From assembly GCA_031271405.1 (NCBI GenBank), contig JAISVT010000015.1, positions 1 to 43,548 on the forward strand: a stretch of DNA of 43,548 nucleotides. Direction: 5' to 3'. Source of the stretch: Candidatus Endomicrobium macrotermitis (GTDB taxonomy: Bacteria; Elusimicrobiota; Endomicrobiia; Endomicrobiales; Endomicrobiaceae). A program made the position numbers and the translations under genes. Positions 3,321 through 36,806 of this stretch are shown here, piece after piece (positions within the stretch are counted from its first letter, which is position 1; every line of letters begins with the position of its first letter). The notes beneath the pieces are model-generated. The model saw only the letters and a list, made by a program, of their open reading frames with translations, had not been told where the DNA came from and searched no databases.

Positions 3321-4486
3321 GCGTTGAAGTTAAAAAAGGAATGATTCACGAATTAACGGGATTAAGAGGCCTTGCAGCTTTGTTTATTCTGATTAACCAC
3401 ATATTGCTGGTTACTCCTTATTTCAATCAAACTTTTATAAAGGAATATTTGCAGCATTTCGCCATTATAGGAATGAGTTTGTTTTTTATCTTAAGCGGGT
3501 TTGTGATTGACTATAACTATGCCGAAAAAATTAAGAGTGATCCTAAAAGCGGAATCTTAAAGTTTTTAGTCGCTCGTTTTGCGCGTTTGTACCCGCTGTA
3601 TTTTGTTTTTATAATCGGCTTTTTTATCTTTAACTTGTTTGATTTGCCCAAAGACAGTTCTCTATATGCCGCAAACATAGTGTCTTTACCGACTTTTTTA
3701 GTGGGCATGCAAACCTGGGTGTACGGGTTTATAAACGGCAATGCGCTTATTTTTCTTCAGCATAATGCCAATATCAGTTGGTCAATTTCAAGCGAAGTGG
3801 CACTGTATTTATTGTTTATTCCGATGGTAATTTTCGTTTTTAGAAGCAATAAGATGAAATGGATTCTCGGTTTGCTTGCTTTTGCCGTTATAGGCAGGTT
3901 TATATGGTGTTATTTTTCGTTTTCTGACCCGACGTTAAGTAACTTTCTCATTTCTATCTTCGGCGATCATAGTTCGTACCCTCCTTGGCTATGGCTTGTT
4001 TATCATTCCCCTTATGGCAGAATGTTTGAGTTTTTGGCAGGCTGCGCTATTTCGCGATATTACCTTAACGCCGGCGGCAGGTGGCGGTCAAAACCTGTTT
4101 TCGTTGCCATGTTACTGCTGGCATTAACAGGTATGATTATTGTTTTTATGGGAAAAATTAATATGACTATCGCCAATCATTTGTTTTTCCCCATATTTTT
4201 GATTTTTATTGTTTTTGCGGTAACTCAAATCGGCAGTAAATTTTTAAGAAGTAAGCCGCTTTTGTTTGTCGGAGATGTAAGCTATTCCGCATATTTATTT
4301 CACATAATATTTGTACGGGTCTTTTATTTTACCGGCAGCGGCTGGGACGCGATAGTGCTCAATATTATCGCCTATATTGCCTGCACGTATCTTCTTGCAG
4401 CGTTTTCATACAAATACTTTGAAACTCCCGCAAGGAAATATATAAGGGAATATTTCTTCGGCGTAATAAAAAAGCAGGCAGTTTGA
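3317..4486 (+). CDS. Acyltransferase family 3 (OafA/YrhL-like) membrane protein
   Basis: An integral membrane O-acyltransferase that typically decorates surface polysaccharide sugars with acetyl groups. The N-terminus has the family signature LTGLRGLAALFILINH, with the conserved Arg and His of the active site, and about ten hydrophobic helices follow over 389 residues. FILSGFVIDY and FVGDVSYSAYLFHI are further family-typical segments. No periplasmic SGNH domain is fused at the C-terminus. It overlaps the gene before it by four bases and nearly touches the TPP gene after it, so it is probably co-transcribed and modifies the sugar or repeat unit made by this operon. Confidence 0.87.
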   Translation: MSVEVKKGMIHELTGLRGLAALFILINHILLVTPYFNQTFIKEYLQHFAIIGMSLFFILSGFVIDYNYAEKIKSDPKSGILKFLVARFARLYPLYFVFIIGFFIFNLFDLPKDSSLYAANIVSLPTFLVGMQTWVYGFINGNALIFLQHNANISWSISSEVALYLLFIPMVIFVFRSNKMKWILGLLAFAVIGRFIWCYFSFSDPTLSNFLISIFGDHSSYPPWLWLVYHSPYGRMFEFLAGCAISRYYLNAGGRWRSKPVFVAMLLLALTGMIIVFMGKINMTIANHLFFPIFLIFIVFAVTQIGSKFLRSKPLLFVGDVSYSAYLFHIIFVRVFYFTGSGWDAIVLNIIAYIACTYLLAAFSYKYFETPARKYIREYFFGVIKKQAV

Positions 4487-4488
4487 CT

Positions 4489-6270
4489 ATGAAAAAACGA
4501 GCGGCTGACATTATAATGGAAACTTTAGTTGAAAACGGAATCACCGACGCTTTTTGCGTTGTGGGCGGCGGCGCTATGTTTTTAAACAATGCGCTTGCCT
4601 TAAACAAGAACATAAAAACGATTTTCAACCATCACGAACAGGCCTGCGCTATGGCTGCCGAAGGATATGCGAAGTTTTCCGAAAAGAAACCGGCTTTGGT
4701 CTGCGTGACAAGCGGTCCCGGAGGAACAAACGCGCTTACAGGCGTTATGGGAGCTTATCAGGACAGCGCGCCGATGATTGTCATATCCGGGCAAATAAGG
4801 TATGAAACTACAGTTGCCGAAAGCGGCTTAAACTTAAGAAGACGCGGCGAGCAGGAGTTTGATATAATAAACTCCGTAAAAAATATGACCAAATACGCAA
4901 AAATGGTTATAGACCCGCTTTCAATAAAGCAGGAAGTGAAAAAAGCGATAGATATAGCAATGAACGGCCGGCGCGGACCGGTATGGCTTGATATTCCGCT
5001 TAACGTTCAAAGCGCAATGGTTGAAGAAGAAGAACTTTTGCCCGTACTTGCCAAACCTGAGATTTTAAAATGCAGCGCGCAGGATTTTGAAAAAATACTT
5101 TCCATGCTCAAAGAGGCAAAATCCCCCTGCATTCTTGCGGGAAGCGGTATACGGACAAGCGGGCAAAGAGGTAACTTTTTAAAAATTTTGGATAAATGGC
5201 AAATCCCTGCAGTGTCTGCAAGTCTTGCGGCGGATGTCCTTTACCGCGAACACGAACTTTTTTTCGGCTCTACGGGTATTGCCGGCACAAGAGCCGGAAA
5301 TATTATCTTGCAAAACGCGGACGTTATTTTGGTTCTTGCATGCAGCCTGGGTTTTAAGCAAACGGGCTTTGTGCAGGAAACTTTTGCCCCGAACGCCAAA
5401 ATTATAATGGTTGATACGGATGCCGACGAGCCTAAAAAGAAAGGCTTGCGCGTAAACACATTTGTCAACTGCGACATAAAAGATCTTTTTGAAAAGATAA
5501 ACTCGGGATCGCAACATATTAAATCTTCCGGCGAGTGGCTTAAACACTGCAAGGGTTTAAAAGAAAAATTTGATATTTTCGAAAATGCCCTGCCTTCGGA
5601 CGAAGGCAGGGTGAACGCTTACGGTTTTTGGAAAGATTATTTTTATTCGGAGCCGGAAAACAATATTACCATACTCGGAAACAACTCCGGAGTGGGCGCA
5701 AAACTTCAAAACGGAGTGTTGAAAAAAGGACAAAGAGTCATAGCAAATATTAATTGCGGCTCTATGGGCTATGACATTCCCGCGGCAATAGGCGCCGCGG
5801 CTGCCTCGGGCAAAGAGGTGATTTTAGTTACCGGCGACGGAAGTTTTATGATGAACATGCAGGAGCTTCAAACGATAGTTTACAATAAGCTGCCAGTAAA
5901 AATAGTTATTTTCTCTAACGACGGGTACCGCGGAATCGCGCAGACCTGCAAAAATTATTTTAACTCAAAAAATGTCGGCTGCACTCCCGAATCAGGCATA
6001 AGCATGCCCGACTTTTCAAAAGTTGCCGCGGCTTTCGGATTTGATTTTAACTTATGCAAAACGGATACCGACGTAAAAAATAAGATTTCATGGCTGTTTG
6101 AACAAAAGGGCTTTTGCATTATGGAAGTGCTGCAGCAGTATGATAATCCGGCTTCTCCAAGGGTCATGTCAAAACTTAATGCGGACGGCACGTCGGCTCC
6201 CGCCGCTTTACACGATATGTACCCGTTTCTTGACAGCGCAGAACTCAGCCGGTGTTTTTTTAACAAATAA
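4489..6270 (+). CDS. YerE/acetolactate synthase-like thiamine-diphosphate enzyme (paralog 1)
   Basis: A 593-residue ThDP enzyme with the three domains of the acetolactate synthase family. The catalytic Glu is E50 in NHHEQACAMAAEGYA. The cofactor-binding motif is GDGSFMMNMQELQ followed by SNDGY. The N-terminal GGGAMFLN pattern and the C-terminal DMYPFLDS are shared with the second copy at 19583-21406. Relatives found in O-antigen loci, such as YerE, transfer a two-carbon unit from pyruvate to a keto-sugar. ATG 4489 is preferred to the TTG at 4483, which overlaps the previous stop. The nearby sugar dehydrogenase and nonulosonate genes do not reveal its acceptor. A catabolic acetolactate synthase is unlikely in this context. 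Confidence 0.78.
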   Translation: MKKRAADIIMETLVENGITDAFCVVGGGAMFLNNALALNKNIKTIFNHHEQACAMAAEGYAKFSEKKPALVCVTSGPGGTNALTGVMGAYQDSAPMIVISGQIRYETTVAESGLNLRRRGEQEFDIINSVKNMTKYAKMVIDPLSIKQEVKKAIDIAMNGRRGPVWLDIPLNVQSAMVEEEELLPVLAKPEILKCSAQDFEKILSMLKEAKSPCILAGSGIRTSGQRGNFLKILDKWQIPAVSASLAADVLYREHELFFGSTGIAGTRAGNIILQNADVILVLACSLGFKQTGFVQETFAPNAKIIMVDTDADEPKKKGLRVNTFVNCDIKDLFEKINSGSQHIKSSGEWLKHCKGLKEKFDIFENALPSDEGRVNAYGFWKDYFYSEPENNITILGNNSGVGAKLQNGVLKKGQRVIANINCGSMGYDIPAAIGAAAASGKEVILVTGDGSFMMNMQELQTIVYNKLPVKIVIFSNDGYRGIAQTCKNYFNSKNVGCTPESGISMPDFSKVAAAFGFDFNLCKTDTDVKNKISWLFEQKGFCIMEVLQQYDNPASPRVMSKLNADGTSAPAALHDMYPFLDSAELSRCFFNK

Positions 6271-12469: not shown

Positions 12470-13623
12470 AAAAAAGAACAATAGCCGTTTTGACAACATC
12501 ACGCGCAGACTACGGCATAATGTCGGAATTAATTAAAAAACTGCAAAGTGATAAGTCTTTGGATATTAAAGTGATAGTTTCGGGATCACACCTTTCAAAA
12601 CGTCACGGAAGTTCAGTCAAAGAAATTATAAAAGACGGCATAAAAATTTATAAGCGGGTTGACATAGGCATCTCAAGCGACACTCCGAAAGATATAGGCA
12701 AGGTTATGGGACGCGCAACGGAGCTTTTTACAAAAACGATTGAGCAGGCAAAACCCGATATCATTCTTTTGCTCGGGGACAGATATGAAGTTCTGTCCGG
12801 CGCGATAGCCGCTTTGCTTTTAAGGATACCGATAGCGCACCTTCACGGCGGAGAAGCGACATTCGGAGCTATTGACGAGGCTATGCGGCACGCAATAACA
12901 AAAATGTCCCACATTCATTTTGCCTCATGCGAAAAATACAAAAAAAGGATAATCCAACTCGGAGAAAACCCCAAACAGGTTTTTAACACGGGATCGCTCG
13001 GCGTTGAAAATGCCGAAAACATTAAAACTCTTTCAAAACGGGAACTGGAAAAAAGTCTAAACATTAAATTCAATAAAAAAAATCTGATGGTTACATTTCA
13101 CCCCGTTACTCTGGAAGGCGATGAAAAAAAACAAGTTATTGAGCTTCTGAATGCTTTGTCTAAGTTAAAAGAGACCTCTGTTTTCTTTACTATGCCGAAT
13201 GCAGACGGCGGAAATAAAGCAATAGCTTTGGAAATAGAAAATTTCGTTAAACGTAATAACAATGCTTACGCGTTCGGGTCTTTAGGCAAGCTGAAATACT
13301 TTTCAATGTTGAAAAATGTTGACGGCGTTATCGGAAACTCCTCAAGCGGGATAATAGAGGCGCCCAGCTTTAAAATTCCTACGGTAAACATAGGAAGCAG
13401 ACAGGCCGGCAGATTGCAGGCAAAAAGCATTATAAACGCTTTGCCGATTGAGAAAAATATAAGCAAAGCCATACAAAAAATTTACGACCCTGAATTTACG
13501 GCCTTAATTAAACGGTCAAAAAACCCGTACTCAAAACAAAATACGGCAAAAACCGTGATAAAAATTTTAAAAACGTATCCGCTTGACAATATTATTATAA
13601 AGAAGTTTTTCGATCTAAAATGA
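12466..13623 (+). CDS. legG: Hydrolysing NDP-sugar 2-epimerase (NeuC/LegG family)
   Basis: Removes the nucleotide while inverting C2, releasing the free sugar that the NeuB-type synthase uses. The 385-residue GT-B-like fold shows TTSRADYGIM at the N-terminus, HLHGGEATFGAIDEAMRHA in the middle, and GNSSSGIIEAP near the C-terminus; these are typical NeuC/LegG segments that bind the UDP or GDP part. Next to PtmE, LegC, LegH and LegI it is best read as LegG, acting on the GDP- or UDP-linked diacetamido sugar. Start and stop overlap neighbours by four bases. The CMP activation enzyme that should follow the pathway is not in the window. Confidence 0.9.
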   Translation: MKKRTIAVLTTSRADYGIMSELIKKLQSDKSLDIKVIVSGSHLSKRHGSSVKEIIKDGIKIYKRVDIGISSDTPKDIGKVMGRATELFTKTIEQAKPDIILLLGDRYEVLSGAIAALLLRIPIAHLHGGEATFGAIDEAMRHAITKMSHIHFASCEKYKKRIIQLGENPKQVFNTGSLGVENAENIKTLSKRELEKSLNIKFNKKNLMVTFHPVTLEGDEKKQVIELLNALSKLKETSVFFTMPNADGGNKAIALEIENFVKRNNNAYAFGSLGKLKYFSMLKNVDGVIGNSSSGIIEAPSFKIPTVNIGSRQAGRLQAKSIINALPIEKNISKAIQKIYDPEFTALIKRSKNPYSKQNTAKTVIKILKTYPLDNIIIKKFFDLK

Positions 13624-15542
13624 ATAAACTGATAAAAATTTTAAACAATAAACGCGTATACTTTGCAATACTGGCTGTTCTATTGGGTATTTTCTTTGCA
13701 AGGCTTATTCACTTAGACAGTGATTTGCCTTCGTTTGGCGTGGCGCTGTATGCTCCCGTAGATGAAGGAACTTATTCGATAATGGCGTTAAACAAATATA
13801 TTTACGGCGAAGTTAACGTTAAAAACCAAGAATTAAACTCTTTTACATACCCTACGCACAGAATCAATGTGCTTGGAAATGCGCTTTCTTACCTGTCTCT
13901 CAACATATTCGGAAGAAATTATGCCGGATTAAGAATGCCTTCGGTTGTCTGGGCATTTTTAACGCTGCTTTTGGCATTATTTATACTTAATAAGCTTTTG
14001 CAGGGATATGCATACAAAAGACCGGTAATACTCTTATCGGCTGTAATTTTTACCACAAGCTTTGCTTATTTAATGGTTTCAAGGGTTGTTGAGCCGTCGG
14101 TAGTAAGAATGTTTTGCGCCGTATTGCTGTTTGCTTTATATGTTTCCGGAATAAAGCCTTTTTTGAAATTTTTCCTGATGGGCGCACTTTTATCCGTTTC
14201 TCTTTATTTTGTTTACGTTACCAATATATTTTTTCTTTTGCCGTGCGCCTTAATGCTTTTCGTTGATTTGTACGAAACAAAAAGGGTTTTGAATTCCCTT
14301 ATGTTTATTTTAGGAGCGGTTTCGGTTGCAGTTTTGGGCGAACACTATTATAAAACCGTTTGGGGTTTATCCTATTTGCAAAATGCTATTGACTCCGTAT
14401 CGGCATTCGCTTCAACAGCGGGATACGAATCGACTACAAAAATAGGACACCTTTACAAAAATTTCAGATACTTTTTTTCAAATAACGGCTTTATGTTTAA
14501 TATGCCGCTGTTTTTTATGTCGCTATATTTGCTGCCGCCTTTAGTTTTCGGCATTTTTAAAAAGAGGGACATAAACGCACTTGTTCTGTCGGCATTTATA
14601 ATAGGACTTTTGTTTCAGACAATTTATTCGCAGGACTACATACTGCGCAAAGGGATAATAATATTTCCGCATTTCCTTATCTTAACAATGCTGTCTTTAA
14701 AGTATTTCAACTCTTTTTTAGAAAGTATGTGGGGAAGCGAACTAAACAATGCGGGGATTTCATTTGAATTTAACCGGAAAATCTTTAGGATTTCAAAAGA
14801 AAACCTTAAAATTCCTTTTGCCCGCGCATATTTTGCATTTTTTGCGTTTACAGGACTTGTCGCGCTTATATTTTGTTCGAACAGGCTGTTTTTTACAAGT
14901 TCTAACGCTAGGATTGATTTTTCTATTTATGACAAACTTGGCTACATTGTATTTCAGGCAGCACCCGTCATATGTACAATCGCTTACGGATATTTTAAAG
15001 TTTTTAATAACAAAATATCGCCTGCAAGTTTCAAGAAATTTTTATTTGAGTGTATGATACTTATTTTCGCCTGCGGGTTTTTATTTAACGTTTTACTGTC
15101 TTTTGAGTATATTTTCTTTAAGCCTTCATTTAAAAATAAAGAGAGTATGATAAAACTCGGAAAATATGTCGGTAATGATTACGTTTTAGGCGAATGGGCG
15201 TACGCGCATGCGCTATATAACGATATTATGCCTGTTGAAAACACTTATGAAAAGCTTACTCAGTACCTTATAGAAAAACCCGGCGCGAAAATTTTACTCT
15301 ACAGCAATTACAGCATAGACCCCGTACTTATAGAGACGCTTCTATCAAAACACTTTGTTTTCAAAGAAGAATATAAAATAGACAAATCATATACAACATA
15401 CGGAGAGATGCGCCCGTTTGCGCTTTACTCGGTAATCCGATTTAAGGAATATTATTATAAACTGTTTCCGCGCAAAGACAGGCTGTATTATCCGTGCAGA
15501 TCCATAAACAATACCTCACTCTTTATGGATATTGCTCTCTAG
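13620..15542 (+). CDS. GT39/ArnT-like integral membrane glycosyltransferase
   Basis: A 640-residue protein with about ten or more membrane helices, typical of GT-C enzymes that use polyprenyl-phosphate sugars on the periplasmic side. After the first helix comes APVDEGTYSIMALNKY, matching the acidic D-E motif in the first periplasmic loop of the PMT/ArnT superfamily. The C-terminal ~130 residues are soluble and presumably periplasmic. It overlaps legG by four bases, so it probably ends this operon. The acceptor could be lipid A, a protein or an O-antigen unit. The GtrB-like enzyme downstream could supply its lipid-linked donor. That functional link is inferred. Confidence 0.77.
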   Translation: MNKLIKILNNKRVYFAILAVLLGIFFARLIHLDSDLPSFGVALYAPVDEGTYSIMALNKYIYGEVNVKNQELNSFTYPTHRINVLGNALSYLSLNIFGRNYAGLRMPSVVWAFLTLLLALFILNKLLQGYAYKRPVILLSAVIFTTSFAYLMVSRVVEPSVVRMFCAVLLFALYVSGIKPFLKFFLMGALLSVSLYFVYVTNIFFLLPCALMLFVDLYETKRVLNSLMFILGAVSVAVLGEHYYKTVWGLSYLQNAIDSVSAFASTAGYESTTKIGHLYKNFRYFFSNNGFMFNMPLFFMSLYLLPPLVFGIFKKRDINALVLSAFIIGLLFQTIYSQDYILRKGIIIFPHFLILTMLSLKYFNSFLESMWGSELNNAGISFEFNRKIFRISKENLKIPFARAYFAFFAFTGLVALIFCSNRLFFTSSNARIDFSIYDKLGYIVFQAAPVICTIAYGYFKVFNNKISPASFKKFLFECMILIFACGFLFNVLLSFEYIFFKPSFKNKESMIKLGKYVGNDYVLGEWAYAHALYNDIMPVENTYEKLTQYLIEKPGAKILLYSNYSIDPVLIETLLSKHFVFKEEYKIDKSYTTYGEMRPFALYSVIRFKEYYYKLFPRKDRLYYPCRSINNTSLFMDIAL

Positions 15543-15561
15543 GTAATATGTATTGTATAAT
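15532..15561 (+). promoter_or_regulatory. Possible promoter for the GtrB-GtrA pair
   Basis: TTGCTC (15532-15537), 18 bases, TATAAT (15556-15561) lies at the end of the GT39-like gene, 33 bases before the GtrB-like ATG. The -10 is perfect and the -35 keeps TTG. There is no clear Shine-Dalgarno sequence in front of 15595. Confidence 0.35.
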
Positions 15562-15594
15562 TGTTGGTATTGACGTTATATTTTACCGGTATAA

Positions 15595-16530
15595 ATGAAA
15601 AAAATAAGTTTTATAATCGCTTGTTATAATGAAGAAGACAACATACCCCTTATTTACTCTGCTATTTCAAAAATAATGGCAGATATGCCGCAGTATAACT
15701 ACAATTTCACTTTTGCAGATAATGCATCCACAGACAGAAGCAGGGAAGTTTTAAGGAATTTAGCCGCCAAAGACAAACGCGTCCGCGTAATCCTAAACAA
15801 CAGGAATTTCGGTCCGGCAAGAAGCGGCTTTAACGGTTTTATCTCAACCGACGGCGACGCAACGATAAACCTTGCCTGTGACATGCAAAACCCTCCGGAA
15901 CTTATCCCGGTTTTTTTAAAGCATTGGGAAGCGGGAAGCAAAGTTGTTTGGGCCCAGAAAACAAACAGTGAAGAATCATTTTTAATGAAACAAATCAGAA
16001 ATCTTTACTATAAAATTATTAAACTTTTAAGCGATGTAAACCACTACGAAAACGCTATCGGCTGGGGGCTTTATGACAAAAGCATAGTGGACGAAGTAAG
16101 GAGTTTAAAAGACCCTGAGCCTGACATCCGCGATATAGTATCGGACTTCGGTTACGAAGTGACGCTTGTGCCATATGTTCACCCGGCAAGGCGCAAAGGT
16201 AAGTCTTCCTATAATTTTTTCAGGTATTTTGACGCAGCCCTTTCATCTCTTGTCCATACAAGCAAAGTTCCTTTAAAATTGTGTATTTTTCTTGGTTTAG
16301 GCATGTCTTTTTTAAGCGGCCTTGTCAGTTTGTTTTATCTTGTTTATAAGCTGATGTATTGGAACAGCTTTCAGCTGGGGCTTGCGCCGCTGGTTTGCGG
16401 CATATTTTTTATATTTTCCGTTCAAATTTTCTTTTTGGGCATTTTGGGCGAATATGTGCTGTCTATTTTGGGGCGCGTAAGTTTCAATAAATACGTTATA
16501 GAAAAAGAAAGGATTAACTTTGAGGATTAA
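15595..16530 (+). CDS. Polyprenyl-phosphate glycosyltransferase (GtrB/DPM1-like)
   Basis: Transfers a sugar from a nucleotide donor to undecaprenyl phosphate on the cytoplasmic face. Of 311 residues, ~1-225 form the GT2 domain (SFIIACYNEEDN, FADNASTDRS, ACDMQNPPELIP) and two hydrophobic helices lie at ~225-300, the GtrB arrangement. DMQNPPE replaces the usual D-x-D-Q-D-P-P, but the key Asp and Gln remain. The following GtrA-like gene overlaps it, reproducing the GtrA-GtrB pair used for O-antigen glucosylation and related decorations. The sugar is unknown. The ATG at 15595 lies 52 bases after the previous stop. Confidence 0.85.
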   Translation: MKKISFIIACYNEEDNIPLIYSAISKIMADMPQYNYNFTFADNASTDRSREVLRNLAAKDKRVRVILNNRNFGPARSGFNGFISTDGDATINLACDMQNPPELIPVFLKHWEAGSKVVWAQKTNSEESFLMKQIRNLYYKIIKLLSDVNHYENAIGWGLYDKSIVDEVRSLKDPEPDIRDIVSDFGYEVTLVPYVHPARRKGKSSYNFFRYFDAALSSLVHTSKVPLKLCIFLGLGMSFLSGLVSLFYLVYKLMYWNSFQLGLAPLVCGIFFIFSVQIFFLGILGEYVLSILGRVSFNKYVIEKERINFED

Positions 16531-16972
16531 GAGTTTACTTGAAACAAACCGAAAAGAAGTAATCCTTTATCTTATCACGGGCGTATGGAATACGGTTTTC
16601 GGTTACGGAGTATATGCTTTTTTTGTTTGGCTTTTGACCGGAAAATTGCCTGCGGCATATATGTTTGCAAGCGTGATAAGCACTTTTTTTTCGGTAACTA
16701 ACAGTTATTTGTCATATAAGGTTTTTGTATTTAAAACCAAAGGGAATTATATAAAGGAATATATTAAATGCTGGGCTGTTTACGGTTCTGCGGGTATCGT
16801 GAATCTGGCTCTTCTTCCTGTCGCGGTATTTTGCTTTAATACGGTTCTTCCCGATAAATATTTAAACCTTTCTCCTTATCTTGCCGGGCTTGCGCTGTTA
16901 TTCGTTACTACCGTTTTCAGCTTTTTGGGGCATAAAAACGTTACTTTTAAAAAAGGCTCAAAAAACCTCTAA
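16520..16972 (+). CDS. GtrA-like small membrane protein (putative lipid-linked sugar flippase)
   Basis: A 150-residue protein with four predicted membrane helices and the family pattern LITGVWNTVFGYGVY near the start and FSFLGHKNVTF near the end. GtrA proteins are thought to help flip polyprenyl-phosphate sugars made by GtrB across the inner membrane. The start is a TTG at 16520, eleven bases inside the GtrB-like gene, preceded by AAGAAAGGA; no ATG gives a complete first helix. Its stop codon overlaps the stop of the converging gene at 16969 by two bases, leaving no room for a terminator hairpin between them. Confidence 0.83.
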   Translation: MRIKSLLETNRKEVILYLITGVWNTVFGYGVYAFFVWLLTGKLPAAYMFASVISTFFSVTNSYLSYKVFVFKTKGNYIKEYIKCWAVYGSAGIVNLALLPVAVFCFNTVLPDKYLNLSPYLAGLALLFVTTVFSFLGHKNVTFKKGSKNL

Positions 16973-19446
16973 TTTTTTCTTTTGTACACCGTAATAAGTT
17001 CCGAAGACTCTGCCGGCTCATAATCGCCTATCATGTAATCGAACACTTCTTTCACGCTTTCCAGCCTTAAAACTCTCCACAGCGATTCGTTATATGTATA
17101 AACGTTCATATATTGAGGCGAAATAATATCCTGCCCGTACCGGCGTTTCATATCTTTATCGGCAAATAAGTACTGAGGTTTTAATAAATCGAACCTTTCT
17201 TTGATTTTATCGATTTCATCGCGCGTAACAAGCGCGTTTGCAATATCGTTATTATACAGATTGTTGTATTTGTCGGTTATCAGAAGCAAAAGCAAATCGT
17301 ACATTGAAATCATGGAAACCGAATTTTCATTTTGAGAATATTTTTCGATAAGCGCTTTTGAGCCGGCAAAAAAATCCGGATTCATTGTGGATATAAAATC
17401 CGTATTAGGCAAATCCCACTTGTAAGTAACGTGGTTTTTGAATACAGTATCGAACTTCCTTTTGGATTTTACAAAATCCCTGCCGTCGGATAAAAATATG
17501 CACAAAAACACCGCAGCAACAAGCGTAAAAATGAAATTTTTGCTTTTCGCGGAAATATTTTCGGAAATCATGCTTAAAAAAGCGGAAACGGTAAACGCCG
17601 CTATCACAAAAAGCGGCATAAAATGGTCTTTTTGCGGACAAGTTATATAGTAAAACAGCGCGCCCTGCAAATAAAACAAAAAGAACAGCGCGGTATATCT
17701 TTTTTCCGGAACGGCTTTACGGAAATATGCCGATAAAACGTATGCGGCAAATATTACGGACATTATCGCCAAAACTACCGAAGGGCTTACCGGAAAGCCC
17801 GCCATGCCGTATAAAAAATATTTTTGCGAAGCCTGCGCGCCCACATTGGAAAATACATATACCGGAACGGCAAGCGCGGGTATCAATGCCGAAACAACGA
17901 TATCGGTTTTGTTCTTTTCTAACAAGTATTTAATACCAAGGGTCAAAAACAATCCGCCCGATATAAAAATTCCGAAATGCGGATTTATCCCTATGGACAG
18001 CATAGCGAAAAATAACGCAATGAAAATATATTTTTTTTCATTGCCCTTAACATACATATATAAGAAAAACGCAACAAATATATCGAAAAAATGCCTCATC
18101 GGGTTATAGCCTACGGCAAGAACTATGTAAAAATAGCTTGTCCCCAGGCACGAAATTACAGCGGCAGCGGTATTGATAAATACGTATTTTATGTCTGCGA
18201 ACATTTTACGCGATATAAAAAAAGCGGCCAGAACGTAAAAAACGTAAAAAGAAAACGCGATCCTCATCATGGAGCCCAGGCTGAAGCTGCCCGATACCTG
18301 CATTATTTTGCCTATAAAGTAAGTGTTTAAAAAACCGTACATAAAATTTATTTCCCGTACGGGCTTATTCAGCTTAAACATTTCGTAACAGGGATTAAAA
18401 ACAAGCGTATTGTGATGCAGCACCCCCCTGTTAATTACCTGCCACTCCGTTTCAAGGGCGTTTACTTTTTTAAAGAACCTTTGCCGCGAGTCAAGCTGCT
18501 TCTTCTCCCGGTTCATTTTCTCATACAGCTTTAAAAGACTTTCTTTTTCTTCGTTATTTACCGCGATTTGCATCAATATCCCTAAATCGCTTTCCGGAAA
18601 AACTCCGGTTACGGCAAGCCTTTCGCCTGCCATAAAATAAACGGGCAGCACAGAAGCGTCCGTCAGATTGTTGATTTTTTGTATGTCTTTTTCCGTTATT
18701 GCTTTAAGGCTGACAAAAGTTTTAACGGCATCGGTATCGGAAAGATAAACGCTGTTGCCGGAATAAATGTCCTCATCTTTTCTAAAGTCAAATCTTTTAT
18801 GGTATCCCCATAGGCCGATTTCGTTTATGTATCCGAAATTATCAACTATAGAGCCGTCTTTGAGCTTTGTTTGTTCGGGAATGTTCAGGTATTCGTTTAT
18901 TATTTTAGGCGGAGAAAACACAAGAGGCGCAAATATAAAAAGAAAAAATACGGAAAAAATAAGCAAAGCGTAAAAAGATACTTTATCCGTTATTTTCGTA
19001 GGAATCGCCGAAATTTTTTCATATATGAATCCGTAGTTTATAAAAGGCGTAAACAGCAAAACCAGCCATACGGCCGATTTCGTGAAAGCATTAAAATCTA
19101 TCAAAAGGGCAAAATTTGCGGCCGCAAAGAACAAGAAGAAATAAAATTTGAATTTCGCGTCTTTGCTTTTAAACAAATCCGAATATTTTTTGTTGAAACC
19201 GTAAAAATAAAAAAATACGCCGGCAAAAACCAAAGTTACCGGCAGCAGCGCCAAATATACCGAAAAATACCTCATTTTTTCCGGAAAATACCATGCGTAT
19301 GCACCGGGCAGGGGGTCTATAAGTTCCGTAACCGGAACATACGAAACGCAAAACTGCAACACTGCGTTTAATAATCCGAAAAAAGCCAAGGCAAAAAAAA
19401 GAACGACGGCTTTTTTTTCGTTAAAGAATTCAACGGCTGCAGGCAT
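16969..19446 (-). CDS. Large multi-spanning membrane protein of unknown function (possibly GT-C type)
   Basis: I do not recognise the family. The 825 residues show about five N-terminal helices (to ~residue 180), a hydrophilic region of ~200 residues with VFPESDLGILM and many Lys/Glu, then eight or nine helices (~385-640), and a soluble C-terminal tail of ~170 residues that includes ISMYDLLLLL. The alternating membrane and extramembrane layout resembles GT-C glycosyltransferases or O-antigen membrane proteins, but no clear D-E motif was found. The ATG at 19446 is preceded by ACGGAG. It lies 136 bases after the second TPP gene on the same strand and may be the last gene of the CDP-sugar cluster. 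Confidence 0.6.
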   Translation of the reverse strand: MPAAVEFFNEKKAVVLFFALAFFGLLNAVLQFCVSYVPVTELIDPLPGAYAWYFPEKMRYFSVYLALLPVTLVFAGVFFYFYGFNKKYSDLFKSKDAKFKFYFFLFFAAANFALLIDFNAFTKSAVWLVLLFTPFINYGFIYEKISAIPTKITDKVSFYALLIFSVFFLFIFAPLVFSPPKIINEYLNIPEQTKLKDGSIVDNFGYINEIGLWGYHKRFDFRKDEDIYSGNSVYLSDTDAVKTFVSLKAITEKDIQKINNLTDASVLPVYFMAGERLAVTGVFPESDLGILMQIAVNNEEKESLLKLYEKMNREKKQLDSRQRFFKKVNALETEWQVINRGVLHHNTLVFNPCYEMFKLNKPVREINFMYGFLNTYFIGKIMQVSGSFSLGSMMRIAFSFYVFYVLAAFFISRKMFADIKYVFINTAAAVISCLGTSYFYIVLAVGYNPMRHFFDIFVAFFLYMYVKGNEKKYIFIALFFAMLSIGINPHFGIFISGGLFLTLGIKYLLEKNKTDIVVSALIPALAVPVYVFSNVGAQASQKYFLYGMAGFPVSPSVVLAIMSVIFAAYVLSAYFRKAVPEKRYTALFFLFYLQGALFYYITCPQKDHFMPLFVIAAFTVSAFLSMISENISAKSKNFIFTLVAAVFLCIFLSDGRDFVKSKRKFDTVFKNHVTYKWDLPNTDFISTMNPDFFAGSKALIEKYSQNENSVSMISMYDLLLLLITDKYNNLYNNDIANALVTRDEIDKIKERFDLLKPQYLFADKDMKRRYGQDIISPQYMNVYTYNESLWRVLRLESVKEVFDYMIGDYEPAESSELITVYKRKN

Positions 19447-19495
19447 TGTTTTATTCTCCGTAACAAATTATTAACAAACGCGCGCCGGAAAAATC

Positions 19496-19575
19496 TGTCA
19501 TCCGCAGGGGCTATAAATAGCGTCTTTTCTACAGACTCTGCGATGGACGATTGTCTCCGCAGAGTGACAAACGGC
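19496..19575. repeat. Palindromic repeat between the TPP gene and the large membrane gene
   Basis: The 136-base spacer holds ACTCTGCG (19535-19542) and CGCAGAGT (19558-19565), a perfect 8-bp inverted repeat with a 15-base loop. It is bordered by TGTCA/TGACA-type ends like other palindromes in the window. No T-run follows the stem on the minus strand, so it is not a clear terminator. Confidence 0.55.
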
Positions 19576-19582
19576 TGTCAGT

Positions 19583-21406
19583 TTATTTTAAAATATTTTC
19601 TTCAAACTCTTTTCTGTCCAAAAAAGGGTACATATCTTCAAGAGGCGGCGAAACGATTGTCCCGTCTTTAAGTTTTTTTGAAGACAGCTTCGGAGAAAAC
19701 GCATAGTCTTTTTCAACTTCGACCGCGCATATCACGGGACATTTTGAAGCGATAACTTTTTTTACGGTTTCGCTTATCTTTTCAGGTTCGGACAACCGCA
19801 CGGATTTGATTTCGAACGCTTTGGCGATTTTATCAAAATCCGGCAAAGAAACGCCGCTTTCGGGCCCGCAGGCTGTAAACCGGCCTTTAAAAAAGTTTTT
19901 CTGCGTCTGTTTAATGGACGAATAGCCGCCGTTAGATATTACAAAAACTTTTACCGGCAGATTATGGTGTTTTATTGTTTGGAGTTCCTGAAGGTTCATC
20001 ATAATGCTTCCGTCTCCGGCTATGCAGACCACATTGCGTTTTCCGTTTACGGCCAGGATTGCTCCTATGCCTGCGGGCAAATCGTATCCCATAGACGCGT
20101 TTCCCGAATTGGTTATAAAGCGCTGTCCTTTTTTTATTTCCGCCGTTTGAAACGCGCATACCGTAGCAGTCGCGTTCGCCATTACGCAAATATCGTTTTC
20201 TTTAAGATGCCCGGTCAGTTTTCTTATAAAATAATACGGGTTTATGACATTATTTTTATTTTTGTATTCTTCGGCTTTTTCAAAAGAATATTTTTGTTTC
20301 AGGTTTTGACAGAATTCGAGCCAGCCGGATCCGCTTTTTGAAACGCCGGATTGCTTCGTCAAGACTTCGTCTTTCCTCGCAATGACAGCCTTTAAAAGTT
20401 CGGGAAGAAAATCCGCTAGATCGGCATTTACTTTTAAGTCCGCTTTTACGGTTTTTTTGCCGAGTTCAGCTTTATCTATATCGACCGCTATTTTATATGC
20501 GTTTTTTGCGAAACTTTTCCAGTTGTAGCTTGTTTGCCTTATGTTATTTCTTGTTCCGAGAAACAATACCGTATCCGCGTTTTGAAGCGCGAAATTTCCG
20601 GCTCTCTGCCCTATCGAGCCTATGCGGCCTATGAAGTTTTTATTGTCCGATTCGATAATGTCAAACCCGTTTAAAGTCGTTACAACGGGAATATTCGTTC
20701 TTGAAACAAGATTTTTGAAGTTTTGTATTTGGCCTGACAGCCTTATGCCGTGTCCCGCTACTATCAACGGGCGGCGGGACGCAAGGAGTTTGGAAATTGT
20801 TTTTCCGGCCGCCGCGGCGCTGCCGCCTTTTGCGGAGAAACCTTTTTCCGCAGAAAAAGATTTCAGTTTTTTCTCATCTACCATAGCCGCCTGAACGTCT
20901 GCGGGTATGTCCAGCCACACGGGGCCTTTTCTTCCGTTTTGAGCAAGCCATACGGCTTTATCCAAATGATATTTGACCGTGTCCGGGGAAGTTACCATTA
21001 CGGCATATTTTACAAGCGGTTTTACCACGGAAATTATGTCGGCTTCCTGATCTCCAAGCTGTCTCAAAGGCAAATCCGGGCAAGACGCGGCCGTCGTTTC
21101 AAATTTCACCTGTCCGGAAATATAAAGCACGGGAACTGAATCAGTCCACTGTCCGAAAACCCCGTTTAAACAGTTAAGCCCGCCGGGACCGGTTGTAACG
21201 TTTACTAAGGCAAGTTTTTGGTTTACTCTTGCGTAACCCTCGGCGGCCATGGAGCAGGCCTGCTCGTGGTGATTTGCAGTATAAGGAATATATCTTCCAA
21301 GGCTGTCGTTTAAGTGCATGGCTCCGCCGCCGGATACCATGAAAAAATGATTTACCTTATGATATTCTTTCAGCCTTTTGGCAATATAATCGGATAACTT
21401 TATCAT
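19583..21406 (-). CDS. YerE-like thiamine-diphosphate enzyme (paralog 2) in the CDP-sugar cluster
   Basis: A 607-residue ThDP enzyme, homologous along its whole length to the copy at 4489-6270. The catalytic Glu is E48 in NHHEQACSMAAEGYA; the cofactor motif is GDGSIMMNLQELQ with SNGGY. The family includes YerE, which attaches an acetyl unit from pyruvate to CDP-3,6-dideoxy-4-hexulose. Because rfbF, rfbG and rfbH lie on the same strand just upstream, a branched CDP-sugar product is plausible. Residues 341-353 are encoded by a 39-bp dispersed palindromic repeat inserted in frame, in a linker that is shorter in the paralog. The catalytic domains on both sides look intact. Confidence 0.82.
   Translation of the reverse strand: MIKLSDYIAKRLKEYHKVNHFFMVSGGGAMHLNDSLGRYIPYTANHHEQACSMAAEGYARVNQKLALVNVTTGPGGLNCLNGVFGQWTDSVPVLYISGQVKFETTAASCPDLPLRQLGDQEADIISVVKPLVKYAVMVTSPDTVKYHLDKAVWLAQNGRKGPVWLDIPADVQAAMVDEKKLKSFSAEKGFSAKGGSAAAAGKTISKLLASRRPLIVAGHGIRLSGQIQNFKNLVSRTNIPVVTTLNGFDIIESDNKNFIGRIGSIGQRAGNFALQNADTVLFLGTRNNIRQTSYNWKSFAKNAYKIAVDIDKAELGKKTVKADLKVNADLADFLPELLKAVIARKDEVLTKQSGVSKSGSGWLEFCQNLKQKYSFEKAEEYKNKNNVINPYYFIRKLTGHLKENDICVMANATATVCAFQTAEIKKGQRFITNSGNASMGYDLPAGIGAILAVNGKRNVVCIAGDGSIMMNLQELQTIKHHNLPVKVFVISNGGYSSIKQTQKNFFKGRFTACGPESGVSLPDFDKIAKAFEIKSVRLSEPEKISETVKKVIASKCPVICAVEVEKDYAFSPKLSSKKLKDGTIVSPPLEDMYPFLDRKEFEENILK
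20348..20386 (-). repeat. 39-bp palindromic repeat inside a coding sequence
   Basis: Read on the minus strand it starts GTCATTGCGAGG and ends GACGAAGCAATCC. ATTGC/GCAAT and AAGAC/GTCTT form nested inverted arms. It contributes exactly 13 codons (V341 to S353) of the second TPP gene. The same end sequences (GGATTGCTT and GCAATGAC) occur in the rpoC-rpsL spacer at 27999-28049. Confidence 0.8.
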
Positions 21407-21444
21407 TTTAATTTAAATGCGCGATCATTGTTTATTAATACTTC

Positions 21445-21514
21445 CCGCCGGCAATGCCGGCGGCTTGCACTGCCGCTTCCTGACTGTCATTCCCGAATGT
21501 TTTTATCGGGGACG
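21445..21514. repeat. Two hairpin repeats between the NeuB-like and TPP genes
   Basis: CCGCCGGC-AAT-GCCGGCGG (21445-21463) is a perfect 8-bp stem with a 3-base loop. TGTCATTCCCGA...TCGGGGA (21485-21512) is a second stem-loop with the TGTCATTCC end seen at 36776. Neither is followed by a T-run, so they are probably dispersed repeats or mRNA stability elements and not intrinsic terminators. The rest of the 134-base spacer shows nothing recognisable. Confidence 0.6.
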
Positions 21515-21540
21515 GCAAACAACCGGATCTTAACTGCGCG

Positions 21541-22626
21541 TTAAAGCCCTCTTTCGCAAATTTTCTTTCTAAGGCTTTCATTATAAGCATAGGGAGAATC
21601 GATATCGTCAATTTTTATGGGAGCGTCTTTTTTTACCGGTTTAAGCAGCACTTCTCCGTTCATAAGTTCGCGGCATGAAATTTGCCCTTTCTGCAGAGGT
21701 ATCGCCAAATAAACATCTTCGTCGGTAAGGACATCGCCTTTTTTAAGATTATGTCTTGCGTAAACGCCGCGTACCAGATCGTTCAGATATTCGATCTCTC
21801 TTTTTGGAGGGATTCTTTTTAATTCCCCTGAACTTCCGCACAGCTCTTTGGCCTTTTGATAAGCTTTCATCCATCTGTCTATATCGGAAGGAGCCGAGCA
21901 ATAAGGAGACATCTCTTTATCGTCGTCATATTCGATATCGACATGCCTTTCAAACGTTCTTGCGCCTTTCGCGTATGCGATAAGCATGGCGGATTCTATG
22001 TCTTCGTTGCGTTCGTGCGTGGAAAAACCTATGATGTGTCCCGGATAACGGTTTTTTAAAAAATCTATCTGGTTTAATTCCAGTTCGTATTTTTCGGAAG
22101 GGTAGAGCGAAACGCAATGGTTTATGGCAAGCGGGATATTTCTGTTGTCAAAAAATTTGACTATGTCGTCTATATCTTTAAGAGACGACCCTCCTGTCGA
22201 AAAAATCGCGGGTTTTCTTGTTTTTGCGATCTTTTCAATCAATACCCAGTCGTTGATGTCCGAAGAAGCTATTTTTATTATATCGATTCCCAGATTTACG
22301 CACACGTCTACCGACACTTCGTCAAACGGCGTGGAAATAGTAATCGCCCCGGATTTTTTTATCGCTTCGGTCAAAACGGTATAGTCGTCGTAACTCATTT
22401 TTGTCTGAAGGGTTTTGTTGATATACCTTATGTCGTCCCTGCCTTTAAAATCTTCATGGACAAACGTGTCCACATCCCTAAACTGCAGTTTTATTGCGGT
22501 ACGAACGTTATTGAATCTTATTATTCTCGAAAAATCAGTTATTATTTTTTTCCCTCTTTCTATGTTTCCCCAATGGTTGTTGGCAAGTTCCAAAACGAAT
22601 AAATCTTCAAAGATCGTATTTTTCAT
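21541..22626 (-). CDS. Divergent NeuB-family (PEP-condensing) sugar synthase with SAF domain
   Basis: A 361-residue relative of sialic/legionaminic acid synthases. Retained features are the active-site Glu in LELANNHWG (E13), Lys in AIKLQF (K46), STPFDEVS, KIASSDIND, STGGSS, the metal-binding His in NHCVSLYPSEKY, and a C-terminal SAF-like domain (GVYARHNLKKGD). Differences from canonical NeuB are GFSTHE in place of GYSDHT, ERHVDIE in place of EKHFTLD, and no GPDH motif, with DDDKEMSPYCSAP in its position. Chemistry is probably still PEP addition to an aldehyde or hydrolysed sugar, but with a different acceptor from LegI. It lies between the HAD remnant (3-base gap) and the TPP gene, inside the CDP-hexose cluster. 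Confidence 0.78.
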   Translation of the reverse strand: MKNTIFEDLFVLELANNHWGNIERGKKIITDFSRIIRFNNVRTAIKLQFRDVDTFVHEDFKGRDDIRYINKTLQTKMSYDDYTVLTEAIKKSGAITISTPFDEVSVDVCVNLGIDIIKIASSDINDWVLIEKIAKTRKPAIFSTGGSSLKDIDDIVKFFDNRNIPLAINHCVSLYPSEKYELELNQIDFLKNRYPGHIIGFSTHERNEDIESAMLIAYAKGARTFERHVDIEYDDDKEMSPYCSAPSDIDRWMKAYQKAKELCGSSGELKRIPPKREIEYLNDLVRGVYARHNLKKGDVLTDEDVYLAIPLQKGQISCRELMNGEVLLKPVKKDAPIKIDDIDSPYAYNESLRKKICERGL

Positions 22627-22629
22627 TTT

Positions 22630-22929
22630 TTATCCTTTCAAACCCGTTCCCGTAATTTCCGAAATGGCCGTATAGATCCCTATGACATCATCGCATTTTT
22701 TATCGGCATTTTCAAATTCGCAAGCGCCGCCGTAACCGTATAAAACCGTGCGTATCATTTTATCCGGCGGCAGGCCTGTTTCGATATGCGTTCCGGACGC
22801 GATACGGCAACCGTTTTCGGCAATCGCTCTTACGATATCGTAAGCGGAATCCGTTAAAGTGCCGTCCAAATCGAACAGGATATTTTTTATTTTGCTTTTC
22901 TTTTCAAGCTTTATTACGGAAGAAATCAT
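22630..22929 (-). CDS. Short HAD-superfamily hydrolase, apparently truncated
   Basis: The 99 residues begin with a short basic lead and then HAD motif I, ILFDLDGTLTDSA, with both catalytic aspartates. The next ~60 residues resemble the cap region of phosphoglycolate-phosphatase-like enzymes, then the frame stops at GTGLKG. HAD motifs II, III and IV, expected over another ~110 residues, are absent, and the next gene begins three bases later, so the missing part is not hidden in another frame nearby. The ATG overlaps the rfbH stop by four bases (ATGA), so it is probably still translated. It may be a deletion remnant or a small protein with a new role; phosphatase activity is doubtful. Confidence 0.6.
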   Translation of the reverse strand: MISSVIKLEKKSKIKNILFDLDGTLTDSAYDIVRAIAENGCRIASGTHIETGLPPDKMIRTVLYGYGGACEFENADKKCDDVIGIYTAISEITGTGLKG

Positions 22930-24296
22930 TTTACGGAAAGATTGTCAAAAAACTCTTTAAATTTGGAAACTGCGTATTCAAGATGTTTTTCGCTCAGGCC
23001 GGGCCATACGCCTATCCAGAAAGTCGAATTCAGCACGGTGTCGGTATTGGGAAGCATATTATAATCCTGCTCGGTCAAAGAGTTCGATTTCAAGAGAGCC
23101 GAATTCCTTATTCTCATTTCTATTTCATTATCCGTAAATACGGGCTGCCTTAACAAATTGCCGGCAAAAAGCTGCCTTGTGCCTATATTATTTTCTTCCA
23201 AAAATTTTACAAGCTCCATTTTTTTGAATTTATCGTTAGGCTTGACCGTAATCGTAAACCCGAACCACGAAGGCTGAGCATTGTCAGGAGTTTCGGGAAG
23301 TATCAAATAGTCTTTAAATTTTTCAAGTTCCCTGTAAAGATATTTAAAATTTTCATTTCTTTTTTCCATAAAACCGTTTAAACGTTTAAGCTGCGCCGAA
23401 CCGCAAGCCGCCTGCCAGTCGGTTATTTTAAGGTTATACCCCAAATGCGAATAAACGTATTTATGGTCGTAACCGAGCGGCATATTTCCGAACTGCATCG
23501 TAAATCTTTTCCTGCACGTATCGTCTTTTCCGGGCGCGCACCAGCAGTCCCTTCCCCAGTCGCGAAACGACATTATTATTTTATACAACCGGGAGTCGTT
23601 TGTAACGACCGCTCCGCCTTCGCCCATTGTTATGTGATGAGCCGGATAAAAACTGAACGTCCCTATATGTCCGGCCGTACCGGTAAATTTTCCGTTAAAT
23701 TTCGAGCCGAGCGCGTCGCACGAATCTTCTATAAGCCACAAACCGCGCTTATCGCATATTTGTTTTAATTTGTCCAAATCGAAAACGCTGCCCAAAGTGT
23801 GCGCCACAAAAACGGCTTTTGTTTTGGGCGTCAGCGCTTCTTCCACCTGATTTAAGGCTATATTGTAATTGCCTATTTCAACGTCAACAAATACCGGCAC
23901 AAGCCCGTTTTGGATAATCGGCGTAACGGTTGTAGGAAAACCCGCGGCAACGGTAATGACTTCATCGCCTTTTTTGAGCCGTTTGTCTCCCAGCTTGTGG
24001 GAAGTCAGCGCCGCAACGGCAAGTAAATTTGCAGATGAACCGGAATTGGCTGTAAGCGCGTGTTTTACGCCCAGATAAGAAGCAAATTCTTTTTCAAACT
24101 CATCGTTAAACCTGCCCGCCGTAAGCCACATATCGAGCGAAGCGTCTATCATATTTTTAAGCTCTTCGCCGCCCAGCAATTTGCCCGAAACGGCAATATA
24201 TTTGCCGGATTTTACGTCCGGTTTTGCAATACAATAATATATGCCCGCCAAAAACTTTATACACGCTTTTAAAAAATTTGAAATTATTTTTTTCAT
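22926..24296 (-). CDS. rfbH: CDP-4-dehydro-6-deoxyglucose 3-dehydratase (E1)
   Basis: A PMP/[2Fe-2S] enzyme that removes the C3 hydroxyl from CDP-4-keto-6-deoxyglucose on the way to 3,6-dideoxyhexoses. The 456 residues include H220 in FYPAHHITMGEGG where DegT aminotransferases have Lys. They also have C193, C251, C253 and C261, the exact C-x57-C-x-C-x7-C pattern of the Yersinia E1 iron-sulfur site. This makes the call firm. The N-terminal ~28 residues are hydrophobic and unusual. It lies downstream of rfbF and rfbG across a 163-base spacer with a palindrome, and its stop overlaps the HAD gene. The partner reductase E3 is not seen in the window. Confidence 0.95.
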   Translation of the reverse strand: MKKIISNFLKACIKFLAGIYYCIAKPDVKSGKYIAVSGKLLGGEELKNMIDASLDMWLTAGRFNDEFEKEFASYLGVKHALTANSGSSANLLAVAALTSHKLGDKRLKKGDEVITVAAGFPTTVTPIIQNGLVPVFVDVEIGNYNIALNQVEEALTPKTKAVFVAHTLGSVFDLDKLKQICDKRGLWLIEDSCDALGSKFNGKFTGTAGHIGTFSFYPAHHITMGEGGAVVTNDSRLYKIIMSFRDWGRDCWCAPGKDDTCRKRFTMQFGNMPLGYDHKYVYSHLGYNLKITDWQAACGSAQLKRLNGFMEKRNENFKYLYRELEKFKDYLILPETPDNAQPSWFGFTITVKPNDKFKKMELVKFLEENNIGTRQLFAGNLLRQPVFTDNEIEMRIRNSALLKSNSLTEQDYNMLPNTDTVLNSTFWIGVWPGLSEKHLEYAVSKFKEFFDNLSVK

Positions 24297-24459
24297 AATA
24301 TGTTCTCTATAAAAGCCCCGTATGATCCGATTGTTGTCTCCGGGGGAGATTTAAAAACAGCCCGGATCCCGTGTCAGGCACGGGATGACAGCATTGTGTT
24401 TATGCAGAACCTATTAATTTATCGACACTGCGGCTCCGCACAGCGGGGCGCATAATTTT
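24297..24459. repeat. rfbG-rfbH spacer with palindromic repeat
   Basis: ATCCCGTG-tcagg-CACGGGAT (24366-24386) is a perfect 8-bp stem followed by GACA. It matches the general style of the TGTCA-ended palindromes at 21485 and 36776. A smaller inverted pair, TGCGG-ct-CCGCA, lies near 24428. No T-run follows, so rfbF-rfbG transcripts may continue into rfbH. Confidence 0.6.
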
Positions 24460-25563
24460 TCAAGATCCGGTTCCGAAACTTATCTGCTCCGCATATTCGT
24501 TTATTTGCTTATTTGAAAATTTCAGCATATCTTCGCCGTCATTATACGCTTTATACCACTTCATCGTTTCGTCTATGGCTTTTGTTACCGTATATATGGG
24601 CTCCCAGTTTAATTCTTTATCGGCTTTTTCTATACACAGCTGTAATAATCCGGCTTCGTGCGGGTGTTCCCCTTTATCTATCGAATAACTGCCTTTTTTC
24701 AAAATTTTTATTGCTTCTTTTACAACGTTTTCCACCGTAATAACCGAACTTTCGTAAGGCCCGAAATTATAGGCCGACGCATACTTTGCGGCCGAATTTC
24801 TGTCTTTTGACAAAAGTTTAACGCCTAAAAGCAAATATCCCGACAAAGGCTCTAAAACAAACTGCCACGGGCGCACGGCGTCCGGGTTTCTCAAAACTAT
24901 TTTCTCGCCCGAATAAATCGCTTTAATAAAATCCGGGATAAGCCTGTCTAAAGAATAATCCCCGCCGCCGATAACGTTGCCGGCCCTTGCCGAAGCCAAA
25001 GCCGTATTGTGTTTTACGCCGATATGAGCAGGATTAAAAAACGAACTCCTGAAAGAAGACGTTACAAGCTCGGAACACGCTTTCGAGTTGCTGTACGGAT
25101 CGTAGCCGCCCATAGGGTCGGTTTCTTTATAAGCGTAATTTTCTTCTTTGTTGTGGTAGCATTTGTCGGTAGTAACGTTTACTATGGCTTCTACGCCGCC
25201 CGACATTCTTGCCGCTTCCAAAACATTTACTACGCCCATAACGTTAGTTTGATATGTTTCCAGCGGAGTTTTATATGAAACTCTGACCAAAGGCTGGGCT
25301 GCAAGATGAAAAATAATATCCGGCTTAAAAGAACCTACCGACTTTTTTAAATTTTCAAAATCGCGTACATCGCCTAATATATGCTTTTTTACCTTTTTAT
25401 CCAAACCCAAAATATTAAATAACGCCGGCTCGGTATCGGGCGCGAGCGAATATCCGCAGACTTCAGCCCCTAAATTTGTAAGCCAAAGCGCAAGCCACGA
25501 GCCTTTAAAACCCGTATGTCCCGTTAAAAAAACTTTTTTGCCCTTATAAATATCAAAATCCAC
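24460..25563 (-). CDS. rfbG: CDP-glucose 4,6-dehydratase
   Basis: Converts CDP-glucose to CDP-4-keto-6-deoxyglucose with bound NAD+. An extended SDR with FLTGHTGFKGSWLALWL, the diagnostic RfbG N-terminus, then TTDKCYHNKE, the Tyr/Lys pair in YDPYSNSKACSE, RAGNVIGGGDYS and RPWQFVLEPLSGY. The GTG at 25563 is chosen because it gives a start only a few residues before the Rossmann strand, as in Salmonella RfbG. A GTG at 25575, overlapping the rfbF end, would add four residues and is nearly as likely. The order rfbF-rfbG-rfbH is the classical 3,6-dideoxyhexose arrangement. Confidence 0.95.
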   Translation of the reverse strand: MDFDIYKGKKVFLTGHTGFKGSWLALWLTNLGAEVCGYSLAPDTEPALFNILGLDKKVKKHILGDVRDFENLKKSVGSFKPDIIFHLAAQPLVRVSYKTPLETYQTNVMGVVNVLEAARMSGGVEAIVNVTTDKCYHNKEENYAYKETDPMGGYDPYSNSKACSELVTSSFRSSFFNPAHIGVKHNTALASARAGNVIGGGDYSLDRLIPDFIKAIYSGEKIVLRNPDAVRPWQFVLEPLSGYLLLGVKLLSKDRNSAAKYASAYNFGPYESSVITVENVVKEAIKILKKGSYSIDKGEHPHEAGLLQLCIEKADKELNWEPIYTVTKAIDETMKWYKAYNDGEDMLKFSNKQINEYAEQISFGTGS

Positions 25564-25565
25564 GG

Positions 25566-26345
25566 TTATTCCCACACTTTCCAGGGCGCTTTATCGTTTT
25601 CCCACAAATAATTAAGTTCGTTTTTTTCGCGCAAAGTATCCATAGGTTTCCAAAAGCCGTTATGTTTATAAGCGTTAAGCTGCAAATCTTTTGCGATACT
25701 TTCAAGCGGTCCGCGTTCAAAAATAACGCCGTTCCCTTCGCCCGGGATATAATTTAAAACTTCGGGTTCGCAGACAAAAAACCCGCCGTTGATCCGGCTT
25801 TCCCCGCCTTTGGGCTTTTCCATAAACGACGTTATAATGCCGTCCTCTTTTATGGTTAAAGCGCCGAATCTGCCTGAAAGCTGAACGGCCGTTATTGTCG
25901 CGAGTTTTTTTGATTTTTCGTGAGACTCTATAAGCCGCTTTATGTCTACATCCGCGACGCCGTCGCCGTAAGTCAGTAAAAAGCGTTCTTTTCCTATATA
26001 GCTTTCCGCTTTTTTGATTCTGCTTCCGGTCATTGTGTCAAGCCCTGTGTAAAGCATTGTAACTTTCCACGGCTCATGGCGCGTTTTATGTATTTCAACG
26101 CTGTTGTTTTGCATATCTACGGTAATGTCGGAATAACGGTTGTAATAATTTATGAAATAGTCTTTAATAACGTGGGATTTGTATCCGGTAAGGATTACAA
26201 AATCGTTAAATCCGTAATGCGAATATATTTTCATTATATGCCACAAAATCGGTTTGCCGCCGATTTCAATCATCGGTTTAGGCAATAAAGTCGTTTCTTC
26301 GCTGAGCCTTGTGCCGAGCCCTCCGGCAAGTATTAAAACTTTCAT
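25566..26345 (-). CDS. rfbF: Glucose-1-phosphate cytidylyltransferase
   Basis: Makes CDP-glucose from CTP and glucose-1-phosphate, the first step toward CDP-linked 3,6-dideoxyhexoses. The 259 residues start with LILAGGLGTRLSEET and LLPKPMIEIGGKPILWH, and contain LTYGDGVADVD and NGGFFVCEPEVL, all typical of RfbF. The C-terminal segment HNGFWKPMDTLREKNEL is also family-specific. The ATG at 26345 is preceded by GGGAAG. It is the first gene after the ribosomal/RNA-polymerase operon terminator (26386-26419). I found no convincing promoter in the short spacer, so it may depend on read-through or on a weak promoter. Confidence 0.96.
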   Translation of the reverse strand: MKVLILAGGLGTRLSEETTLLPKPMIEIGGKPILWHIMKIYSHYGFNDFVILTGYKSHVIKDYFINYYNRYSDITVDMQNNSVEIHKTRHEPWKVTMLYTGLDTMTGSRIKKAESYIGKERFLLTYGDGVADVDIKRLIESHEKSKKLATITAVQLSGRFGALTIKEDGIITSFMEKPKGGESRINGGFFVCEPEVLNYIPGEGNGVIFERGPLESIAKDLQLNAYKHNGFWKPMDTLREKNELNYLWENDKAPWKVWE

Positions 26346-27998: not shown

Positions 27999-28049
27999 GG
28001 ATTGCTTTCCCCGGCAAAGACGCTTGGGGACAGGCTCCTTGGCAATGAC
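27999..28049. repeat. Palindromic repeat in the rpoC-rpsL spacer
   Basis: It begins GGATTGCTT and ends GCAATGAC, the same ends as the 39-bp element inside the second TPP gene, with a different ~33-base middle. It lies in a non-coding spacer, where elements of this kind are usually found. Confidence 0.6.
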
Positions 28050-36775: not shown

Positions 36776-36806
36776 TTGTCATTCCGTGACTTACACGGAA
36801 TGACAA
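36776..36806. repeat. Perfect 13-bp palindrome in the rplL-rpoB spacer
   Basis: TTGTCATTCCGTG-actta-CACGGAATGACAA forms a 13-bp stem with a 5-base loop, with the TGTCATTCC/GGAATGACA ends seen in other spacers here. It lies 20 bases after the rplL stop on the minus strand. There is no T-run, so an RNase III-type processing site or dispersed repeat is likelier than a terminator. Confidence 0.75.

Follow-up and report, generated by a model that had tools for sequence, protein, structure and literature searches.

A 39-bp palindromic repeat lies in frame within a gene for a thiamine diphosphate (ThDP) enzyme, in the window analysed here (the whole stretch of DNA, 43,548 nucleotides). In all likelihood it is one copy of a dispersed, non-autonomous REP family of the Endomicrobiaceae (tag CGTC/TGTC, tail CC(A/G)) that landed in a linker of the enzyme, and the peptide it encodes is tolerated rather than selected. 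The features concerned are the following.

19583..21406, minus strand: host gene, a 607-aa ThDP-dependent acetolactate-synthase-like enzyme; three of three Pfam TPP domains match, and the HHEQ and GDGS motifs are kept.
20348..20386, minus strand: palindromic repeat of 39 bp, CGTC/TGTC-tagged, in frame, encoding VIARKDEVLTKQS, residues 341-353.
20387..20387, minus strand: tag base (T of TGTC) before the element.
4483..6270, plus strand: paralogous ThDP enzyme without the insertion.
27999..28049, minus strand: second copy of the family, 51 bp, with a different interior.
36777..36805, no strand assigned: related intergenic palindrome TGTCATTCCGTG...CACGGAATGACA of the GTCATTC sub-family.

On the minus strand the element reads GTCATTGCGAGGAAAGACGAAGTCTTGACGAAGCAATCC, and both the sequence and the open reading frame bear out the initial annotation, which had described a repeat adding 13 residues to the enzyme with the frame kept. 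The copy carries a TGTC tag and a CCG tail, and four of its six reading frames are open. Together with both tag bases it would measure 41 bp, which is no multiple of three, and this counts against the explanation that we prefer.

The paralog, 41% identical to the host protein, was said to lack the extra residues, and the alignment indeed opens a 12-residue gap exactly at the site. The insertion is located between the middle domain, where the Pfam match ends at residue 337, and the C-terminal domain. The AlphaFold2 model keeps a normal fold (mean pLDDT 90.8); in it a helix is prolonged through residue 343 and followed by an extra short helix at 345-351, after which the model becomes uncertain. 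The element lengthens a linker that falls to a mean pLDDT of 54 at residues 351-360. The best relative in the PDB is JanthE (8rph), with 35-36% identity in Foldseek. Around the ThDP gene, at 11480-26345, we observed two NeuB-like genes, a UDP-GlcNAc 2-epimerase, a DegT aminotransferase, a sugar dehydratase and a nucleotidyltransferase, probably a surface-sugar cluster of the nonulosonic acid type.

Orthologs were compared in an alignment of loci L021-L130, of which L021 is the window gene. The 13 residues are present in none of the orthologs on the 109 other loci, some of which represent one genome fetched twice; distant orthologs thus do not share them. When the peptide is removed, the window protein falls back to the usual length of the inter-domain linker, with 13 residues from the LP motif to a conserved W as compared to 15-16 in L023, L026 and L051. 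The nearest ortholog (L022 of genome G017, 70% identity) has 22 residues between the same two points and no repeat-like DNA, which implies that this linker tolerates changes in length anyway and likewise counts against the explanation that we prefer.

The genome itself, which we take to belong to the genus Endomicrobium, holds 11 matches to the pattern GTCATNGC-N(8-38)-GCAATCC, and the reversed pattern used as a control gave 0. The intragenic ones include copies in mfd and in an RluD-like gene, and the majority of the family's copies sit between genes, as had been expected for an element of this type. The copy at 27999-28049, earlier proposed to have the same ends, does have them and is intergenic. 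Two other copies of the 39-bp class in this genome are 86-87% identical to the window element, and the same-genus genome G002 has a copy differing by one base (G002:C1:38720). A plasmid collection searched with the 39-mer gave no match. Other intergenic palindromes in the window start with TGTCAT (19496-19575, 21485-21513, 24360-24390 and the one at 36777-36805); they are of GTCATTC and GTCATCC types and apparently form sister families. The genome has 26 GTCATTC..GAAT matches, a number in which each perfect palindrome enters twice, once per strand.

Among 150 surveyed relatives, 54 carry the family, with up to 86 copies per genome (69 in G002) and almost none of the reversed pattern; these copy counts are based on pattern searches and partial lists. 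One genus, g8, made up of about forty mostly small genomes and including most of the smallest ones, has 0-3 copies per genome. This scarcity can be likened to the situation within Rickettsia, where to our knowledge R. prowazekii and R. typhi are without CGTC REPs. We infer that g8 corresponds to Endomicrobiellum, the endosymbiotic genus described in PMC11257099.

The ends, the tail and a covarying stem place the window element in the family. The GTC of the tag and the CC of the tail are set by the search pattern; in 210 copies the base before GTC was C in 130, T in 73, A in 7 and G in 0 (a C/TGTC tag in 203), and the base after CC was A in 171, G in 38 and T in 1, giving 171 CCA and 38 CCG tails. 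Copies of the 39-bp class have a two-part stem, with 5 bp in the outer part, about 5 bp in the inner part and a loop of 3 nt. Among 26 distinct copies of this class the outer stem, ATTGC/GCAAT, hardly varies. The inner stem shows covariation: 98.3% of the cells are paired as compared to at most 54.9% in sliding controls, double-sided changes number 38 (10.1 in shuffles), and the covariation score is 0.380 against 0.136.

Such strong covariation could also mean that the repeat works as DNA or RNA, for instance as an mRNA hairpin or a binding site for gyrase or another protein, and that its coding is incidental. The window hairpin folds as RNA with -17.3 kcal/mol (z -2.25), in line with such a role; as DNA, however, its fold is not unusual (z -1.24), and the covariation is equally expected of a palindromic mobile element. 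Related genomes vary from 0 to 86 copies, which argues against a general role of this kind, and we consider it very unlikely. That the element is a chance resemblance or an artefact of a draft assembly, the genome being in 64 contigs, has a negligible probability. The match extends over 39 bp, the phenomenon recurs in eight genomes, one of which (G001) is a single contig, and the reversed-pattern control, the survey of many genomes and the PyrK alignment described below refute this reading.

The contexts of the 210 copies were fetched from eight genomes and cover part of the copies present (27 of 69 for G002). Of the 210, 53 were scored as in frame, which required an ORF of 150 aa or more in which the copy is flanked by no fewer than 30 and 25 aa. 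About thirty of these ORFs can be recognised as genes by a Pfam domain or by clear homology; ORFs that match no Pfam domain may be spurious. The hosts supported by Pfam are the ThDP enzyme, Cas6, SDR, IspE, MnmE, CoaBC, TrpF, DUF362, PyrK, QueE-like, RluD-like, AAA, mfd (two genomes), KsgA (two genomes), PriA, a pyridine-nucleotide oxidoreductase, U32, PurQ-like, MiaB-like, LplA, NnrD-like, two radical-SAM proteins and MurB; the mfd of the window's own genome, CoaBC of G003, PyrK of G001 and the RluD-like gene of G032 were added as homologs of tested hosts. The MnmE copy of G002 shows no net insertion in a PDB comparison with T. maritima MnmE and is therefore not counted as proof of insertion; TrpF and KsgA gave no match in the PDB at strict cut-offs. 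In the Cas6-family protein (G000:C29:9470-9515, L136), an in-frame match of 46 bp shares the ends but has a degenerate interior; it may be either an old copy or due to chance.

Alignments of mfd, the RluD-like protein and PyrK showed that the peptides encoded by the repeats are insertions, found in some Endomicrobiaceae only. The repeats in these linkers differ between species, and the linkers of the outgroups are short. Most relatives have a short mfd linker past the UvrB-interaction domain, but different repeat tracts fill it in G000 (the window's genome), G002, G030 and G032; in G001, G003 and G004 it is also lengthened by added tracts. The linker of G002 reads VIARNGEALTKQS, encoded by GTCATTGCGAGGAATGGCGAAGCCTTGACGAAGCAATCC, and that of G000 (G000:C21:77353-77403, L134) has a 51-bp copy in frame and another repeat-like tract (RSEERGVKSVDEDN). 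The C-terminal linker of the RluD-like pseudouridine synthase holds a 34-bp copy in reverse orientation in G000 (G000:C31:22035-22068, L137) and two copies in G032; in G017 it is longer without a recognised repeat. PyrK has family copies in G001 and G003, and different tracts at the same place in G002 and G000. We also observed further short in-frame repeats nearby, e.g. the LRITNYE and SEEWGVKSED tracts; LRITNYEL/LQITNYEL occurs in frame in Endomicrobium relatives, namely in IspE, PyrK and mfd (L199, L239, L424, L425, L387).

The reading frames are mixed among the hosts (forward VIAR..KQS, forward HCEE..AIQ, reverse GL.R..RND, reverse DC..AMT), which argues that any open frame is tolerated and speaks against a single domesticated peptide. 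The initial annotation had called the ThDP copy domesticated. If it were, the peptide would have gained a function in the enzyme, such as an oligomer contact or regulation, and be kept by selection; in its favour, frame and repeat sequence are both intact, residues 345-351 form a short helix in the model, and G002 has a nearly identical peptide, VIARKDNVLTKQS, in a ferredoxin-like DUF362 protein. The intact sequence is, however, better explained by a recent insertion, and the peptide is missing from the orthologs. No gained function is shown, linker length varies naturally, and the peptides differ by locus; with several of the six frames in use and no conserved peptide, the term is unsupported, and we regard domestication as highly improbable.

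According to the explanation that we prefer, tolerated insertion of a REP copy, the family would spread through Endomicrobiaceae genomes as a non-autonomous element, mostly between genes. Copies landing in genes would survive only if the frame is kept, no stop is added and the linker is tolerant. In the ThDP gene, a copy would have transposed into the linker that joins the middle domain to the C-terminal one, where the 13 added residues would be neutral, and the decorated enzyme is presumably made and active.

The family resembles the CGTC-tagged REPs described by Di Nocera et al. 2013 (PMC3733652), whose marks are a CGTC tag with TGTC or CCTC variants, a CCA tail and AT at the start of the stem. 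The tag, the AT at the first stem positions, the CCA tail, the palindromic form and the mostly intergenic location with a minority within ORFs are common to both. Another shared trait is that no dedicated transposase was found, here in a search for Y1_Tnp (PF01797) only, in ten genomes. Y1 transposases are missing from G001, G002 and G032 despite their many copies, and the Y1 genes of other genomes have no repeat copies in the fetched flanks. CGTC families 1-4 usually form a single stem of 8-9 bp with a loop of 4-5 nt (PMC3733652), unlike the two-part stem of the Endomicrobiaceae elements. We therefore place these outside families 1-4, as superfamily-like by tag and tail, and the label that fits best is a REP-like, CGTC-tagged family of Endomicrobiaceae, structurally variant in its stem, whose copies often lie in frame inside genes. 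GTAG REPs associated with a RAYT are likewise short dispersed palindromes, some of them intragenic (PMC3733652); a RAYT-driven GTAG REP was rejected, as the tag is not GTAG and no RAYT neighbour was found in the Y1_Tnp search of ten genomes and the fetched flanks.

The CGTC superfamily includes RPE-4 and RPE-6 of Rickettsia (PMC3733652). For RPE-4, 6 and 7 of R. conorii and R. japonica, orthologous sites are filled by different repeat groups (PMC3767692, PMC3733652). The initial annotation had pointed to the protein-coding Rickettsia elements, and the likeness stands: a mostly intergenic palindromic repeat is found in frame in a linker. As with RPE-4, RPE-6 and RPE-7, the insertions are in frame in unrelated genes, with DNA-repair and tRNA-modification genes among the hosts, and the ATGAC motif (PMC3767692), the complement of GTCAT, recurs, a likeness drawn from published descriptions. 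The inserts of R. japonica are 68-192 bp, as compared to single copies of 25-51 bp here, and belong to another phylum. Homology between the two is plausible. The phyla listed for CGTC REPs are Proteobacteria, Chlorobi, Bacteroidetes, Spirochaetes and Thermotogae, without Elusimicrobiota (PMC3733652). In the literature, as far as it was covered, we found no report of intragenic palindromes in Elusimicrobiota or Endomicrobium, and a text search for the repeat letters returned only papers with unrelated titles.

It is conceivable, if rather unlikely, that Endomicrobiaceae repeatedly gain new protein sequence from REP insertion, in that the same few linkers (mfd, PyrK, the RluD-like protein, CoaBC and KsgA) would have been rewritten over and over by different palindromic repeats, with some of the peptides now functional. 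Rickettsia and Wolbachia are the chief known carriers of protein-coding palindromes, and intragenic REPs are scattered elsewhere. The phenomenon is known in kind and new in place, as it extends to the Elusimicrobiota, a phylum absent from the published list. For annotation, this means that many Endomicrobium proteins have tracts encoded by repeats, which alignments should handle as insertions. Protein-coding palindromes at scale in another phylum, a single-contig genome included, offer an independent setting in which to study how REPs move when no transposase is known, which linkers tolerate them, and whether such peptides ever become useful.
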